From positions 105,202-169,201 of the forward strand of contig JAKASQ010000001.1 of assembly GCA_021828195.1 (NCBI GenBank): a stretch of 64,000 nt of DNA, written 5' to 3'. The notes beneath the pieces were generated by a model. That model worked only from the letters and a program-made list of their open reading frames with translations, did no database searches and had not been told where the DNA came from. Origin of the DNA: Thermoplasmata archaeon (GTDB taxonomy: Archaea > Thermoplasmatota > Thermoplasmata > Lutacidiplasmatales > UBA184). The translations under genes were made by a program, and so were the position numbers. This document shows, piece by piece, positions 36,313 through 41,483 of the stretch (its first letter is position 1; each line of letters begins with the position of its first letter).

Positions 36313-37464
36313 TCAGAACCAGTGGTGCATCCAATACCTCTCGAAGAGAATCTTCTGCATGTGATAGACCGCACTTGGAGATCGAAAGTCGAGGTCCGGG
36401 CGAGGATCGGCCAGAAAGTTGCCCTTGAGGAAGGCACTCTTCCCCCGCGATACCTCCAGAAAGCACGCCCCCTTGCCGTCCCACGTCTCTGGATGAAGCC
36501 TACCGCCAATCTCGGCCGAGATGTTGTGGGCCACGACCTTCGCCTGTCCGTGGGCGAACACCCCGGCCTTAGGGAGAGAAGGAACATATCCGTGGGGAGT
36601 GGGAACGACCGTGATGTCTCCCACCGCGTAGACGCCCGGCTCCTTGGTCCTGAGCGTACGGGGATCGACGGGAACCCATCCCGACCCGTCCGTCAGACCC
36701 GCCTCTACCACTACCTTCGGGGCGCGGTGAGGCGGGATGCAAATGAGCAGATCGAACGCGATCGGAGCACCCTCTTCGAACGAGACCGTGCGTTCGCCGA
36801 TTTCCCACACCTTATGTTTGGGGTGATAGGAGATTGCGCGCTCCCGGAGCATTTCCGCGACTCTGCTTCCGTTTTCGGGCCCGGCGGCGGGAAGGGGATT
36901 GCCCTCGGGGGAGAACAGCCCCAGCTCGACCCGGTCTCTCATCCCCCGCTGACGGTAGAGGTCGTCGAGCAGGAATGCCATCTCGTAGGGGGCTGCGGGG
37001 CATTTGTAAGGAAGACGCGCTATCCCGATGAGGACCTTGCCCCCTGAGAACGCCTGGACGGCCTCCCCCATTCGGACGGCGGAATCGAGATCGTACATGT
37101 GGTGAGCCCAACGGGAGTACCCGGGTACGAGCTCGGTGTCATACTCGGCACCCAGTGCGATGATCAATTGATCGAAGGGAACGCTCCCGGTCGAGGTGTG
37201 AACGACCCTCGCCCGTACGTCGAGGCCGTTGACCTCGGCTTCGTGCACCTCGATGCCCTTCGATCGCAGCGATTCGAGCGGTCGCTGAACCTGAGCGGGC
37301 TCCCGAAACCCCGTCACCAGCCAAGGGAAGGAGGGCGGGAATTGGAAGTTCTTCTTGCGATCGATGAGGATGACCCGAGCACGGCCTCCTAAGCTCTTCT
37401 TAGACTCCACGGCGGCCACAACTCCGCCCACGCCGCCCCCGAGGACCACAATGTTCGCCGACAT
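36313..37464 (-). CDS. FAD-dependent sulfide:quinone oxidoreductase-like protein
   Basis: NIVVLGGGVGGVVAA dinucleotide fold; LPYKCPAAPYEMAFLLDDLYRQRG; PGVYAVGDITVVPTPHG. Confidence 0.88.
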   Translation of the reverse strand: MSANIVVLGGGVGGVVAAVESKKSLGGRARVILIDRKKNFQFPPSFPWLVTGFREPAQVQRPLESLRSKGIEVHEAEVNGLDVRARVVHTSTGSVPFDQLIIALGAEYDTELVPGYSRWAHHMYDLDSAVRMGEAVQAFSGGKVLIGIARLPYKCPAAPYEMAFLLDDLYRQRGMRDRVELGLFSPEGNPLPAAGPENGSRVAEMLRERAISYHPKHKVWEIGERTVSFEEGAPIAFDLLICIPPHRAPKVVVEAGLTDGSGWVPVDPRTLRTKEPGVYAVGDITVVPTPHGYVPSLPKAGVFAHGQAKVVAHNISAEIGGRLHPETWDGKGACFLEVSRGKSAFLKGNFLADPRPDLDFRSPSAVYHMQKILFERYWMHHWF

Positions 37465-37484
37465 GCTCGTCCCCCCGGGGACGT

Positions 37485-37841
37485 TCAGAAGACCGGGGTC
37501 TTATCGGCCCACAGCGTCCACTCCGTCCACTCGTCCAAACTGCTCCGGCGAGTTCCCGCGATCAACTCTGCGTCCTTGATCCCTCGGGCCTCCATACAGG
37601 TCCCGCAGACTCCGATCACGCCGTTGCGGAGCACGACGGCCTTTACCATGGTCTCGATGTTGTAGTAGCCCTTCGGGACGGACTGGCCGGCTTTCGCGCA
37701 CGCAGCCGCGTCGCCGACCAGGAATATTCGAAGTTCAACGGTCGGACCGTTCTTCAGCAGGTTCGCTGCAAGCCGGAGGGCGTTGTAGGCTCGTTCGGTC
37801 CCGTAGGGAGGATCGTTCACCGTGATCAGCACCTTCGTCAT
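37485..37841 (-). CDS. DsrE-family sulfur-relay-like protein
   Basis: MTKVLITVNDPPYGTERAYNALRLAANLLK...FLVGDAAACAK...GVIGVCGTCMEARGI CxxC. Confidence 0.87.
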   Translation of the reverse strand: MTKVLITVNDPPYGTERAYNALRLAANLLKNGPTVELRIFLVGDAAACAKAGQSVPKGYYNIETMVKAVVLRNGVIGVCGTCMEARGIKDAELIAGTRRSSLDEWTEWTLWADKTPVF

Positions 37842-38185
37842 GAGTTCCGGCCCCGTCGAGTTCGCTCGAGCAACCTTCGGTTGGCCCGGATCTGCTCGAT
37901 CACTACCTCGCGCATCAGGTCGAACGCCTCGAGGACCTTGGGGTTCTCCGCCCGGTAGAAGACCGTAGTCCCTTCCCGACGAGACCGGAGAACCCCCCGT
38001 GCGTGCATCAGCGACAGATGCTTGGAAATCGTGGGCTGGCTCAACCCCATGGTCTCGGCGAGCCTTCCGACCGAACTCTCGCGGTCCCTCAGGGAACGGA
38101 GGAGGTAGATCCGGGTGGGATGGGAAAAAACCCTGCAGGCCTCCGCGTGCATGGCATCCAGTTTTCGATCCTCGTCCATCCTCAC
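37838..38185 (-). CDS. ArsR-family transcriptional regulator
   Basis: FSHPTRIYLLRSLRDRESSVGRLAETMGLSQPTISKHLSLMHARGVLRSRREGTTVFY wHTH. Confidence 0.92.
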   Translation of the reverse strand: MRMDEDRKLDAMHAEACRVFSHPTRIYLLRSLRDRESSVGRLAETMGLSQPTISKHLSLMHARGVLRSRREGTTVFYRAENPKVLEAFDLMREVVIEQIRANRRLLERTRRGRNS

Positions 38186-38193
38186 GCTTCGAA

Positions 38194-38226
38194 CGATCAG
38201 TAGGCTTGATCGTATTTTATATTTTA
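38194..38226 (-). promoter_or_regulatory. Candidate ArsR operator and TATA box
   Basis: Perfect inverted repeat CGATCA-N7-TGATCG (38194-38212) abutting AT-rich TATTTTATATTTTA (38213-38226), 8 bp upstream of the ArsR ATG at 38185. Confidence 0.6.
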
Positions 38227-38389
38227 GGCATAGAGGAATGATGTCCTTCTTCCGGGTGGCCGGTATGGGCTGGAGGGTGAGCCCCGTGCCGACTGTTCCG
38301 ATGAAGCGGAGATCGGGGCTCGGATGCGCCGGATGGATGCAGAGATCTGTGCGGGGCTGAGGGGTGGCCCGAACGGGTGTGGTAGGGGC

Positions 38390-38785
38390 TCAGCGGGTCG
38401 CGCGCAACTCGTCGAGCATCTGCCGGTACTGATCCGACGTGATCTCCCCCCGAGCGAAGCGCATCCGGACCTCTAGGACGGGATCGGGAGCCGTGGACGT
38501 CGACACGACCCAGGGCTGCGGGGACCGGGGTCGGAGGAGCAAGGCGACCAGCAGAACCAGGAATATCAGCGGTATTGCCATCATGAACGCGCCGATTCCC
38601 CACATCCAGCTCCAGTTCCCGCCCATCATCCAGCCGAAGCCGCTGGAGGCAGTCGATAGACTCCACGTTGCGATCACGACCATGAACACAAGGGCGATCA
38701 AGACGAGCGCTGCTAGGGAAAGTACCCAACGACGTTCGTCGCTCGTCGTGCCTGTGGGAGAGGAATGGCTCTGCATCTCAGCCAC
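38390..38785 (-). CDS. Two-TM membrane protein with C-terminal SHOCT domain
   Basis: Two TM segments then DPVLEVRMRFARGEITSDQYRQMLDELRATR. Confidence 0.7.
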   Translation of the reverse strand: MAEMQSHSSPTGTTSDERRWVLSLAALVLIALVFMVVIATWSLSTASSGFGWMMGGNWSWMWGIGAFMMAIPLIFLVLLVALLLRPRSPQPWVVSTSTAPDPVLEVRMRFARGEITSDQYRQMLDELRATR

Positions 38786-39051
38786 CTGATCTTACATGCG
38801 ACGAGCCGCATTAAGGTCTGCGAGTCGAATCGGATTGACCCACGGTCGGTTCCGGCTGCAGAGAGTGCGGGCGCCCCCTCAAGCGGTTTCGAGAGTCCGT
38901 CGGTGGGTTCCCACTTGAGGCAGTTCGGTCCATAGGACGGGATCCATCCAACAGGAACGACGCTCCGGTTGGGACGGCTTGGCCCCTCGCTCGACCGGTT
39001 CGACGGGGGTGCCAGATTCGGCGGGGAGGGTCGGCGCAGGAGGTTTTAGTA

Positions 39052-39420
39052 ATGCGTTCCGATACCGTCCGGATGCCCGGGTACAAGAGAGCGTGCCGAT
39101 TTTGCGGCCAGCTGGTCGACGAGGACTCCGTCGTCTGCCCGTTCTGCACTCGGGCCCATCCACTCGTGCCGGTCTGTCCGTACTGCGTCGCCCCCATCGA
39201 CCTCGCCTGGACTGTTTGCAACTCCTGCAAGAAGCCCCTTACAGTCGTGTGCCCGAAATGCACGAGCCCCGTCGGGCCCGACACCGACGTCTGCGAGAAA
39301 TGCCACGCCGTTGTTCGCTACCGCTGCCCGGCGTGCGCGGTAGTGGTGGTCCTCGACGCAAAGAAGTGTGGTCGGTGTGGGGCGAAGCTCAAGGATTACT
39401 GGAAAGCCCAGGGACGCTGA
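39052..39420 (+). CDS. Multi-zinc-ribbon protein
   Basis: CRFCGQLVDEDSVVCPFC, CPYCVAPIDLAWTVCNSC, CPKCTSPVGPDTDVCEKC, CPACAVVVVLDAKKCGRCGAKL: four CxxC-CxxC ribbons in 122 aa. Confidence 0.75.
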   Translation: MRSDTVRMPGYKRACRFCGQLVDEDSVVCPFCTRAHPLVPVCPYCVAPIDLAWTVCNSCKKPLTVVCPKCTSPVGPDTDVCEKCHAVVRYRCPACAVVVVLDAKKCGRCGAKLKDYWKAQGR

Positions 39421-39447
39421 CGCGGACCCGCCTGCTGGAAATTTATA

Positions 39448-40158
39448 GTGGACCACCCATTCGCGCTCGGGGTGACTTCTACGGCGCTGCTCGACCACCC
39501 GAAGAACGTCGACGATTTGAGCGACGACAAGGGATTCCAGTGGAAGTTTCACTGCGACATCTGCGGGAGCGGATACGACTCGGGCTTCATCGCTTCCAAG
39601 AGCGCGGCCTCTTCCCGAAGATTCGGTTTTCTCAGCTCGGGCCTTTCCGCCCTCGGGAGCGCGGCGAGCAGCGCCGGCGGCAGCCTCTCAAGCGGACTGG
39701 GAGGGGCGAGTCAGGCCGCCGGAGGGGCGAGCCAGTTCCGAGGCATGTCCGCCGACTGGCACAAAGAGCACGACAACGCCTTTGCGCAAGCGGTCAACGA
39801 GGCAAAGGTCCACTTCAAGATCTGCCCGAAGTGCAAGCTCTACGTCTGTCCCGACGATTGGAACAACGAGGCGGGGTTGTGCACCACCGATTCGCCGTCG
39901 CTCGCCGCGGAGATGCAGGCCGCCAAGGCTCAAGCCCGGATCGAGCAGATGCAGACCGCGGTCAAGGCCCAGTCGCAGTATGATGGTGACTCGACCGACC
40001 GCGCCACGATCTGCCCGGCCTGCGGCAAACCCTCGGGCGCGGGAAAGTTTTGCAACAATTGTGGAGCCCCCCTCGGGTTTCGGGTCTGTCCGAAGTGTCA
40101 GCACCAGAACCCATCGACCGTCAGCTTTTGCGGGGAGTGCGGCGCGAAGCTCGGGTGA
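39448..40158 (+). CDS. Zinc-ribbon protein with Gly/Ser/Ala-rich low-complexity linker
   Basis: FHCDICGSGYDSGFIASKSA; KICPKCKLYVCPDDW; CPACGKPSGAGKFCNNCG; CPKCQHQNPSTVSFCGECGAKLG; GTG start. Confidence 0.72.
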   Translation: MDHPFALGVTSTALLDHPKNVDDLSDDKGFQWKFHCDICGSGYDSGFIASKSAASSRRFGFLSSGLSALGSAASSAGGSLSSGLGGASQAAGGASQFRGMSADWHKEHDNAFAQAVNEAKVHFKICPKCKLYVCPDDWNNEAGLCTTDSPSLAAEMQAAKAQARIEQMQTAVKAQSQYDGDSTDRATICPACGKPSGAGKFCNNCGAPLGFRVCPKCQHQNPSTVSFCGECGAKLG

Positions 40159-40169
40159 CCCGGTCGACC

Positions 40170-41483
40170 ATGTGCCGGTACTGCTTCTCCGACTCGCCGT
40201 GTGACCACGGAGCTGAAAAGACCCCAGGCTCCGCGTGTACATGCTCGCTCGCGGGGCCGAGCAAGTGTCCCGGCTGTGGATGCGAGTGCATGCCCTGGCA
40301 CTGGGGGCTCGGGTTCGTGGGTCCACTGTCCATCCGGTCGTTTTTCGGGGTCGGGGGTGACGAGAACCCCGGCTTCTCGGGATTCCCTGCGTCGAAGACC
40401 CAGATCGTGGACGCGGCCCGTGAAGCGCTTCAGGATGCGGAGGCCGACATGACCGATGTGGGCTGGCTCTCCGGAAACCTCCCAGACGGGACGTTTCGGG
40501 ATGTGGGCGAAGTATTCATTGCGCTGATGCCGGTCATTGCCTGCCGGGGGCAGGACGCTTCCGCGCTCGTGACGGCGCTCCCGATGACTGCGGTTGCGTC
40601 GGGGACACGAATGGTGGTCGGCACCGACCAGTCGGCCGTGCTCGTCGGCTCGGACGGTCGACCTCTGGATCGTTTTGGGCCCGGCGAGCACCTCCTATCG
40701 CGAGAGGCCGCTCCTCAAGCCGCCGCCGGATCCCGACCGGTGGCCGCCGGATTCGCGAGATCCGCGATCGACGCCACGCCGGTCTTCGCATCAACCCAGG
40801 AAGTTCGAACGTCGCTGAACCGCTCGACCCATACTCGCTCCGGGGAGAGCGTCGCCGTTCGTGGAAGCGTAACGGTATCGATCGGCGCGCTGCCCGAGTT
40901 TCTCGCGAAGGTGGGCTCGCGGCCACGCGGGCTCTCGGCTGCCGAGGGAGAGGCCGAGATCGCCAAGATCCTCGGATCGGCCCTGGAACAGACCGTAGCC
41001 TCCCACGAGATGAGGGAGCTGACGGGGTCGGGCGCCCTTCTCGAAACAGCCGTTCGCGCGGGGGCCGCGCAAGCCGGCCTCCGCGTACTGGCGCTGTCCT
41101 TCGAGCCGGTTACCGCTCTGTCCGCGGTGGATCAGTTAACCGCGGTTCAGGAGATGCAGCGCCGAGCGCTCGCAAACATGCCACCGGAAATGCAAGCCAA
41201 GATCTCGGCCCAGCTGACGCAGGCGATGGAACGGGCCCAAGCCGGGAGAGGGACCGTCGCGAGGGGAAAGAACGATGGGGCGCCCTCGGTCCCCGCCGCC
41301 CCGAGCCGTGCCACTCCCGCCGTGTTGACGTGCCCGTCGTGCCACGCTCCGAACGCTCCGGACCGCAAGTTCTGCGGGAACTGTGGCAAACCCCTCCCCT
41401 CCAAGCGCGTGTGCGCTAGCTGCGGGAAGGAGGCGGAACTCGTCGTGAAGTTCTGCGGCAGCTGCGGCGCCCGGCTAGCGTAA
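40170..41483 (+). CDS. SPFH/band-7-like domain protein with N-terminal Cys cluster and C-terminal double zinc ribbon
   Basis: MCRYCFSDSPCDHG...KCPGCGCEC; GTDQSAVLVGSDGRPLDRFGPGEHLLS; SPFH-like middle; CPSCHAPNAPDRKFCGNCGKPL and CASCGKEAELVVKFCGSCGARLA. Confidence 0.7.
   Translation: MCRYCFSDSPCDHGAEKTPGSACTCSLAGPSKCPGCGCECMPWHWGLGFVGPLSIRSFFGVGGDENPGFSGFPASKTQIVDAAREALQDAEADMTDVGWLSGNLPDGTFRDVGEVFIALMPVIACRGQDASALVTALPMTAVASGTRMVVGTDQSAVLVGSDGRPLDRFGPGEHLLSREAAPQAAAGSRPVAAGFARSAIDATPVFASTQEVRTSLNRSTHTRSGESVAVRGSVTVSIGALPEFLAKVGSRPRGLSAAEGEAEIAKILGSALEQTVASHEMRELTGSGALLETAVRAGAAQAGLRVLALSFEPVTALSAVDQLTAVQEMQRRALANMPPEMQAKISAQLTQAMERAQAGRGTVARGKNDGAPSVPAAPSRATPAVLTCPSCHAPNAPDRKFCGNCGKPLPSKRVCASCGKEAELVVKFCGSCGARLA

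Follow-up and report, generated by a model that had tools for sequence, protein, structure and literature searches.

The window analysed here, a stretch of 64,000 nucleotides from a Thermoplasmata MAG, encodes a diverged protein of the SPFH/band-7 superfamily (gene 3) next to two zinc-ribbon proteins (genes 1 and 2). The latter two genes stand beside an unrelated tandem-repeat protein in other lineages. Our reading, which is tentative and which we place somewhat below an even chance, is that genes 1 and 2 specify an undescribed adaptor pair, distributed throughout the Thermoplasmata and with gene 2 relatives in a few bacteria, that would operate on interchangeable scaffolds of the SPFH or tandem-repeat (possibly PH-like) kind. 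The locus would then be a PspA-independent archaeal membrane-organising system running parallel to the cell's canonical SPFH operon. The genome-wide checks were carried out as searches of the host genome (1.62 Mb, 93.6% complete).

Locus layout and probable transcription units

Genes 1, 2 and 3 are co-directional ORFs on the forward strand with intergenic gaps of 27 and 11 bp (Table 1), and the coordinates and strand given in an earlier note on this DNA were confirmed. The same note had called the locus an operon; the genes are indeed co-directional neighbours but are probably not a single unit. Judging from the aligned upstream regions, gene 1 probably stands alone and genes 2 and 3 form a pair, i.e. 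two transcription units, because TATA-like boxes lie ahead of genes 1 and 2 whereas none is visible upstream of gene 3 in the 12 loci aligned. Boxes of the AAATAC/AAATAG/TTTTAG type are found about 25 bases ahead of the gene 1 start in 11/12 loci and TTTATA/TTTAAG-type boxes precede gene 2 in most relatives, the boxes of both genes having been scored by eye with no shuffle control. Gene 1 thus probably has its own promoter, and genes 2 and 3 would be co-transcribed; their spacing is 11-26 bp across the measured same-strand loci of family f1, the window's family.

The ATG at 39052, annotated as the start of gene 1, is a TTG in the nearest relative and is missing in others, and the MPGYK start (39073) is common to relatives. 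The true start is probably 39073, the annotated one being 21 bases too early, and that of gene 2 is probably 39472. None of the three products has an apparent transmembrane segment, their 19-residue hydropathy peaking at about 1.5 or lower, and all three are matched above cut-offs by the Pfam DZR/Zn_Ribbon models.

Table 1. Features of the three-gene locus (window coordinates; starts of genes 1 and 2 are the probable ones) and tandem-repeat proteins at related loci
Feature	Position	Strand	Basis
TATA-like box TTTTAGTA of gene 1	39044..39051	+	about 25 bases 5' of conserved gene 1 start; alignment of upstream regions
Gene 1, 115-aa protein, serial zinc ribbons (8 CxxC)	39073..39420	+	DZR 5e-15; MPGYK start; dN/dS
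TATA-like box AAATTTATAG of gene 2	39439..39448	+	alignment of upstream regions
Gene 2, N-terminal zinc domain and C-terminal double zinc ribbon	39472..40158 (or start 39448)	+	alignment A3; DZR 1.2e-7
Gene 2 Gly/Ser/Ala-rich insert, predicted disordered	39607..39732	+	AlphaFold pLDDT
Gene 2 C-terminal double zinc ribbon	40012..40143	+	PF12773 DZR
Gene 3, 437-aa SPFH protein, Cys-rich/DUF2795-like N-terminus, C-terminal double zinc ribbon	40170..41483	+	Pfam, AlphaFold, Foldseek, hhalign
Gene 3 Cys-rich N-terminal segment (C2, C5, C11, C23, C25, C33, C36, C40)	40170..40301	+	alignment
Gene 3 DUF2795-like helical domain, residues 72-115	40383..40514	+	PF11387; pLDDT ~95
Gene 3 SPFH/band-7 core, residues 121-312	40530..41105	+	hhalign; Foldseek
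Gene 3 C-terminal double zinc ribbon	41322..41477	+	PF12773 DZR 2e-9
Tandem-repeat partner family member	L052:6338-7570	-	
Tandem-repeat partner family member	L051:9693-11081	-	
Tandem-repeat partner family member	L177:4704-5990	+	
Tandem-repeat partner family member	L127:2204-4222	+	

Zinc-ribbon proteins encoded by genes 1 and 2

The product of gene 1 consists almost entirely of CxxC knuckles, as had been noted earlier: its 115 residues hold 16 cysteines and 8 CxxC pairs, against a mean of 2.0 CxxC when the residues are shuffled. Gene 2 (14 cysteines and 6 CxxC, shuffled mean 0.8) does carry the zinc knuckles previously described at both ends, but the Gly/Ser/Ala-rich stretch that had been taken for a hinge between them is an insert inside the N-terminal zinc domain, which it splits between C28xxC31 and C118xxC121. 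The insert (residues 46-87) was modelled by AlphaFold with a pLDDT of about 30-50 over residues 46-86, compared with 81-88 on its flanks, and a helix downstream of the N-terminal zinc domain connects to the C-terminal double ribbon. Positions C28, C31, C118, C121, C126 and C137 and the DZR cysteines are invariant in alignment A3. A Foldseek search with the gene 2 model gave no match below E 0.6, and matches of the sequence to Prok-RING and NMD3 were both weak.

Gene 3 encodes an SPFH/band-7 protein

By fold and core homology, gene 3 is a member of the SPFH/band-7 superfamily, even though the SPFH models of Pfam and NCBIfam found no match in it, the ribbons alone being detected, and the curated family model PF13421 (Band_7_1) likewise failed. 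With four relatives as queries, a search of GTDB genomes brought up archaeal and bacterial proteins that align over residues 119-437 of gene 3; of these, the ones scanned against Pfam match PF13421 at 7e-24 to 5e-70. With the ribbons removed, comparison of the core with PF13421-type relatives gave an hhalign probability of 98.6 (E 1.3e-15), against 0.1% for the reversed control. The AlphaFold model, built from a 21-sequence alignment, has a pLDDT of 81 overall and mostly >85 in the core, and in Foldseek it matched stomatin, HflK/C, prohibitin and flotillin at E 4e-9 to 1e-7. The best match of the core was stomatin (probability 1.00, E 4e-9), and the stomatin SPFH domain 4fvg superposes on the core with a TM of 0.72 at 3.4 Å; the rmsd is high in the long Foldseek alignments because domain orientation differs. 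The hits from a phmmer search against PDB sequences were weak and scattered (ribosomal protein S5, E 0.013; prohibitin-2, E 0.86), and they were discarded.

Outside the core, C2, C5, C11, C23, C33 and C36 are invariant and C25 and C40 nearly so among 12 gene 3 members that include another family. PF11387 (DUF2795) matches 11/12 of the members weakly (best E 6.5e-5), with E 0.0012 and 19.1 bits for the copy in the window against a Pfam cut-off of 25. The DZR match spans residues 388-433, C-terminal of the SPFH core, and the whole protein contains 18 cysteines and 6 CxxC pairs (shuffled mean 0.7). The plan put forward in the earlier note for 40170..41483, an N-terminal Cys cluster followed by an SPFH-like core and C-terminal ribbons, is therefore borne out by the cysteine alignment, hhalign, AlphaFold with Foldseek and the DZR match, and the SPFH fold on which that note made its reading depend was found by modelling, structure search and profile comparison alike. 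Gene 3 is best explained as a paralogue of the YdjI-like (SPFH-zinc-ribbon) proteins of archaea that has diverged and is soluble. Its case also shows that diverged SPFH proteins are missed by curated family models.

Distribution, linkage and selection

Gene 2 was detected in 34/400 Thermoplasmata genomes, representing 15/104 genera, and full-length gene 3 in 20/400, with nine further weak matches (E 1e-13 to 1e-8) to the SPFH part only. Gene 1 adjoins gene 2 in all of the gene 2 loci examined (33/33). Gene 3 adjoins the pair in 15/33 loci, 14 from family f1 and one from family f19, so that the co-location in relatives on which the earlier reading also depended extends to two families; at three loci gene 3 is inverted yet still adjacent to genes 1 and 2. 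Among the 16 sampled genomes that carry gene 2 as well as gene 3, the two adjoin each other in 15 and are unlinked in one. Gene 3 occurs with no detectable gene 2 in four genomes, all of one genus, and there its C-terminus is a single ribbon rather than a double one, as expected, in these four related genomes, if one ribbon serves genes 1 and 2.

Codon comparison between relatives gave dN/dS values of 0.07-0.16 for genes 1 and 2; for gene 3 the range was 0.21-0.44. All three are under purifying selection and hence are real, functional genes. The tighter selection on genes 1 and 2 fits a core adaptor, but it also fits an independent role of the pair. Tree distances of genes 1 and 2 combined correlate with those of gene 3 at 0.83 (0/2000 permutations), the gene 3 distances being about 3.2 times larger; the agreement fits shared inheritance, although simple vertical inheritance predicts the same and agreement alone does not prove interaction.

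Gene 2 of a Chloroflexi-labelled bacterial MAG (L127:4363-5124, +) shares 66% identity across the N-terminal part with gene 2 of the archaeal genome G120 (L052:7619-8380, -), which suggests recent transfer or mis-binning.

Partner exchange at gene 2 loci

At 15 other gene 2 loci, and at a 16th by BLAST only, the position of gene 3 is taken by an unrelated tandem-repeat protein, and at two loci neither protein is adjacent. In none of the loci read were both found. The tandem-repeat protein, which flanks genes 1 and 2 in other Thermoplasmata families, has about 400-490 aa, no Pfam match of its own and two N-terminal repeats that match each other at E 3e-15; in the L127 bacterium a 673-aa version fused to zinc ribbons adjoins gene 2. 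Pfam and PDB searches with this family returned zinc ribbons and weak, chance-level matches and otherwise nothing. It is possibly PH-like, as judged by eye, and was rejected as a hidden SPFH protein (probability 0.5% or lower). Two of these regions hold additional genes: in G352, two paralogues, each about 830 aa long, are encoded upstream of the pair and its tandem-repeat partner (L170:2121-7141, -), and G049 has flotillin-like, short NfeD-like and stomatin-like genes and a FecR-domain protein near genes 1-2 (L051:2939-9693).

Neighbouring genes and the canonical SPFH operon of the host

The divergent neighbours at 36313-38785 of the window encode a flavocytochrome-c/sulfide-dehydrogenase-like flavoprotein, a DsrE protein, an ArsR-type regulator and a small SHOCT membrane protein, in an order identical to that of the nearest relative, G001. 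The ArsR-DsrE-sulfide-dehydrogenase genes were considered as part of the module and dropped, as they accompany it only in G001 among the loci read. No mobile or defence genes were found among the annotated neighbours and PADLOC gave no match for the module genes; PHROGs returned matches to function-unknown families alone, located in the Cys-rich/zinc-ribbon ends of the gene 1 and gene 3 products.

A canonical SPFH-zinc-ribbon operon lies elsewhere in the host genome (L193:6840-10255, G000:C6 about 360839-364254; similar in L195) and comprises a membrane protein, a zinc-ribbon helical protein, a PF13421 SPFH protein and a YdjG-like zinc-ribbon/PepSY protein. The single PF13421 match in the host is the gene of this operon, not gene 3, and PF13421 was found in 329/400 genomes of the class. 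PspA_IM30 (PF04012) is absent from the 93.6%-complete host genome, with the control positive in 9/14, and the Snf7 model, a weak one that matched 1/14 controls below cut-off, found no match there.

Discussion

YdjI of Bacillus subtilis, an SPFH protein, is soluble and acts with the membrane proteins YdjG and YdjH to bring PspA to the membrane; YdjI gets there via its partner proteins and is required for PspA placement (PMC8581546). Gene 3 shares with YdjI and other PF13421 proteins an SPFH core followed by a zinc-ribbon C-terminus and the lack of a transmembrane segment (PMC8581546). It differs in being undetected by PF13421, with about 20-24% identity to such proteins, in its extra 8-Cys and DUF2795-like N-terminus, and in having two soluble zinc-ribbon proteins as neighbours in place of PspA, YdjG and YdjH. 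A survey of PSP systems described band-7 plus zinc-ribbon proteins, as well as YdjG with two ribbons and a YpeB-related domain, and the ydjFGHI (pspA) operon resembles our locus in encoding a band-7 and zinc-ribbon protein alongside another zinc-ribbon protein (PMC11237479). However, our locus has no PspA, TPM-domain partner or transmembrane protein, and the YdjG-like gene of the host adjoins the canonical SPFH copy instead of gene 3. In the Methanobacteriales, an archaeal SPFH-zinc-ribbon protein is linked to ESCRT, and the SPFH-coiled-coil-zinc-ribbon protein of these Meth_adaptin loci is likewise an archaeal SPFH protein with a zinc ribbon (PMC10936438), but no Vps4, ESCRT-III or adaptin-type gene occurs among the scanned neighbours of gene 3. 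Stomatin, HflK-HflC, flotillin and prohibitin share the fold of the SPFH core, whereas gene 3 has no membrane anchor and carries extra zinc domains at both ends. Gene 3 is YdjI-type by fold and plan, yet it is not matched by PF13421, and its locus, having no PspA and no YdjG/YdjH-like membrane partner, does not fit a Psp operon.

No published description of the three-gene combination was found in the literature searched, whose coverage lay mostly outside subscription journals and preprints. The earlier description of an undescribed system can fairly be kept for the combination, but not for its SPFH-zinc-ribbon component, which is already known (YdjI/YdjL; PMC8581546, PMC11237479, PMC10936438) and has a canonical copy in the same genome.

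The mechanism that we favour, at a little under an even chance, is that genes 1 and 2 form a zinc-ribbon adaptor pair working on an exchangeable scaffold, which in this genome is the SPFH protein of gene 3. The observations behind it are the fold and homology of gene 3, the gene linkage and shared inheritance, the exchange of partners and the purifying selection; the scaffold is regarded as exchangeable because genes 1 and 2 lie beside an unrelated tandem-repeat protein in other lineages. The fusion of that protein to zinc ribbons in one bacterium, the single ribbon of gene 3 where gene 2 was not detected, and the partner-dependent route of YdjI to the membrane (PMC8581546) also speak for this mechanism. 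Gene 3 would oligomerise through its SPFH core, like other SPFH proteins, into a ring or patch at the inner membrane face, with its N-terminal Cys/DUF2795 domain and C-terminal ribbons offered as docking sites. Gene 2 may dock there through ribbon-ribbon contacts and, together with gene 1, may recruit or hold client proteins, probably when zinc or thiol sites are loaded under stress. The zinc-bridged assembly of the three products suggested earlier is hypothetical, and a role in membrane or proteome stress would be an extrapolation made wholly by analogy with YdjI and other SPFH proteins. As gene 3 occurs alone in four genomes of one genus and unlinked in another genome, the pair is not strictly required, and the probable promoter of gene 1 likewise counts against the mechanism.

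One alternative is a zinc- or redox-regulated holdase, in which oxidation would strip the Cys-rich proteins of zinc and let them bind unfolding clients in the manner of Hsp33 and Ruc, the SPFH protein serving as platform. In its favour, genes 1 and 2 are nearly all zinc ribbons, gene 2 with an insert predicted to be disordered, and Ruc is a small zinc-ribbon redox chaperone with a disordered tail (PMC7448276). A thermosome gene adjoins the locus in one relative, but in that genome only; family searches gave no sequence relation to Hsp33 or Ruc, and proteins that are not redox-active commonly carry zinc ribbons. We regard a holdase as unlikely. Somewhat more doubtful still is that two unrelated functions lie side by side, genes 1 and 2 specifying zinc ribbons that associate with nucleic acids or ribosomes and gene 3 a membrane scaffold that works independently of them. 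RNA or DNA binding is frequent among small zinc ribbons, the pair occurs elsewhere with a different partner or none adjacent, and gene 3 is also found alone; against this, adjacency is kept in 15/16 genomes with both genes, even after inversion, and gene 3 follows gene 2 within 11-26 bp (same-strand f1 loci measured) with no visible promoter.

We consider improbable a canonical YdjI/Psp-type membrane-repair operon in which gene 3 would bring a remodeller of the ESCRT-III/PspA family to the membrane. The SPFH and C-terminal zinc-ribbon plan of YdjI and the ESCRT-linked SPFH-zinc-ribbon protein of some archaea (PMC10936438) speak for it, but the PspA_IM30 model and the weak Snf7 model (1/14 controls, below cut-off) had no match in the 93.6%-complete genome, and the locus encodes no transmembrane YdjG/YdjH-like partner, the YdjG-like protein adjoining the canonical SPFH copy instead. 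A conflict or defence module, its patchy and fast-evolving SPFH component directed against viral or competitor factors, has an equally poor chance. It would account for the presence of the locus in about one tenth of the genus's sampled genomes, at differing sites, and for the faster divergence of gene 3 (tree distances about 3.2 times larger than in genes 1 and 2, dN/dS of 0.21-0.44); yet these values are well below 1 and relaxed constraint accounts for the same figures, the patchiness is partly due to incomplete genomes, and neither PADLOC nor the annotated neighbours pointed to mobile or defence genes.

To our knowledge, SPFH function in archaea is largely unknown. The adaptor-pair reading brings into view a lineage-specific SPFH protein whose two partners are dedicated to it and highly conserved, and which in other lineages is replaced beside them by a different protein. 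This natural partner swap offers a handle on the binding target of the zinc-ribbon pair, and with it a means of separating scaffold from adaptor function.
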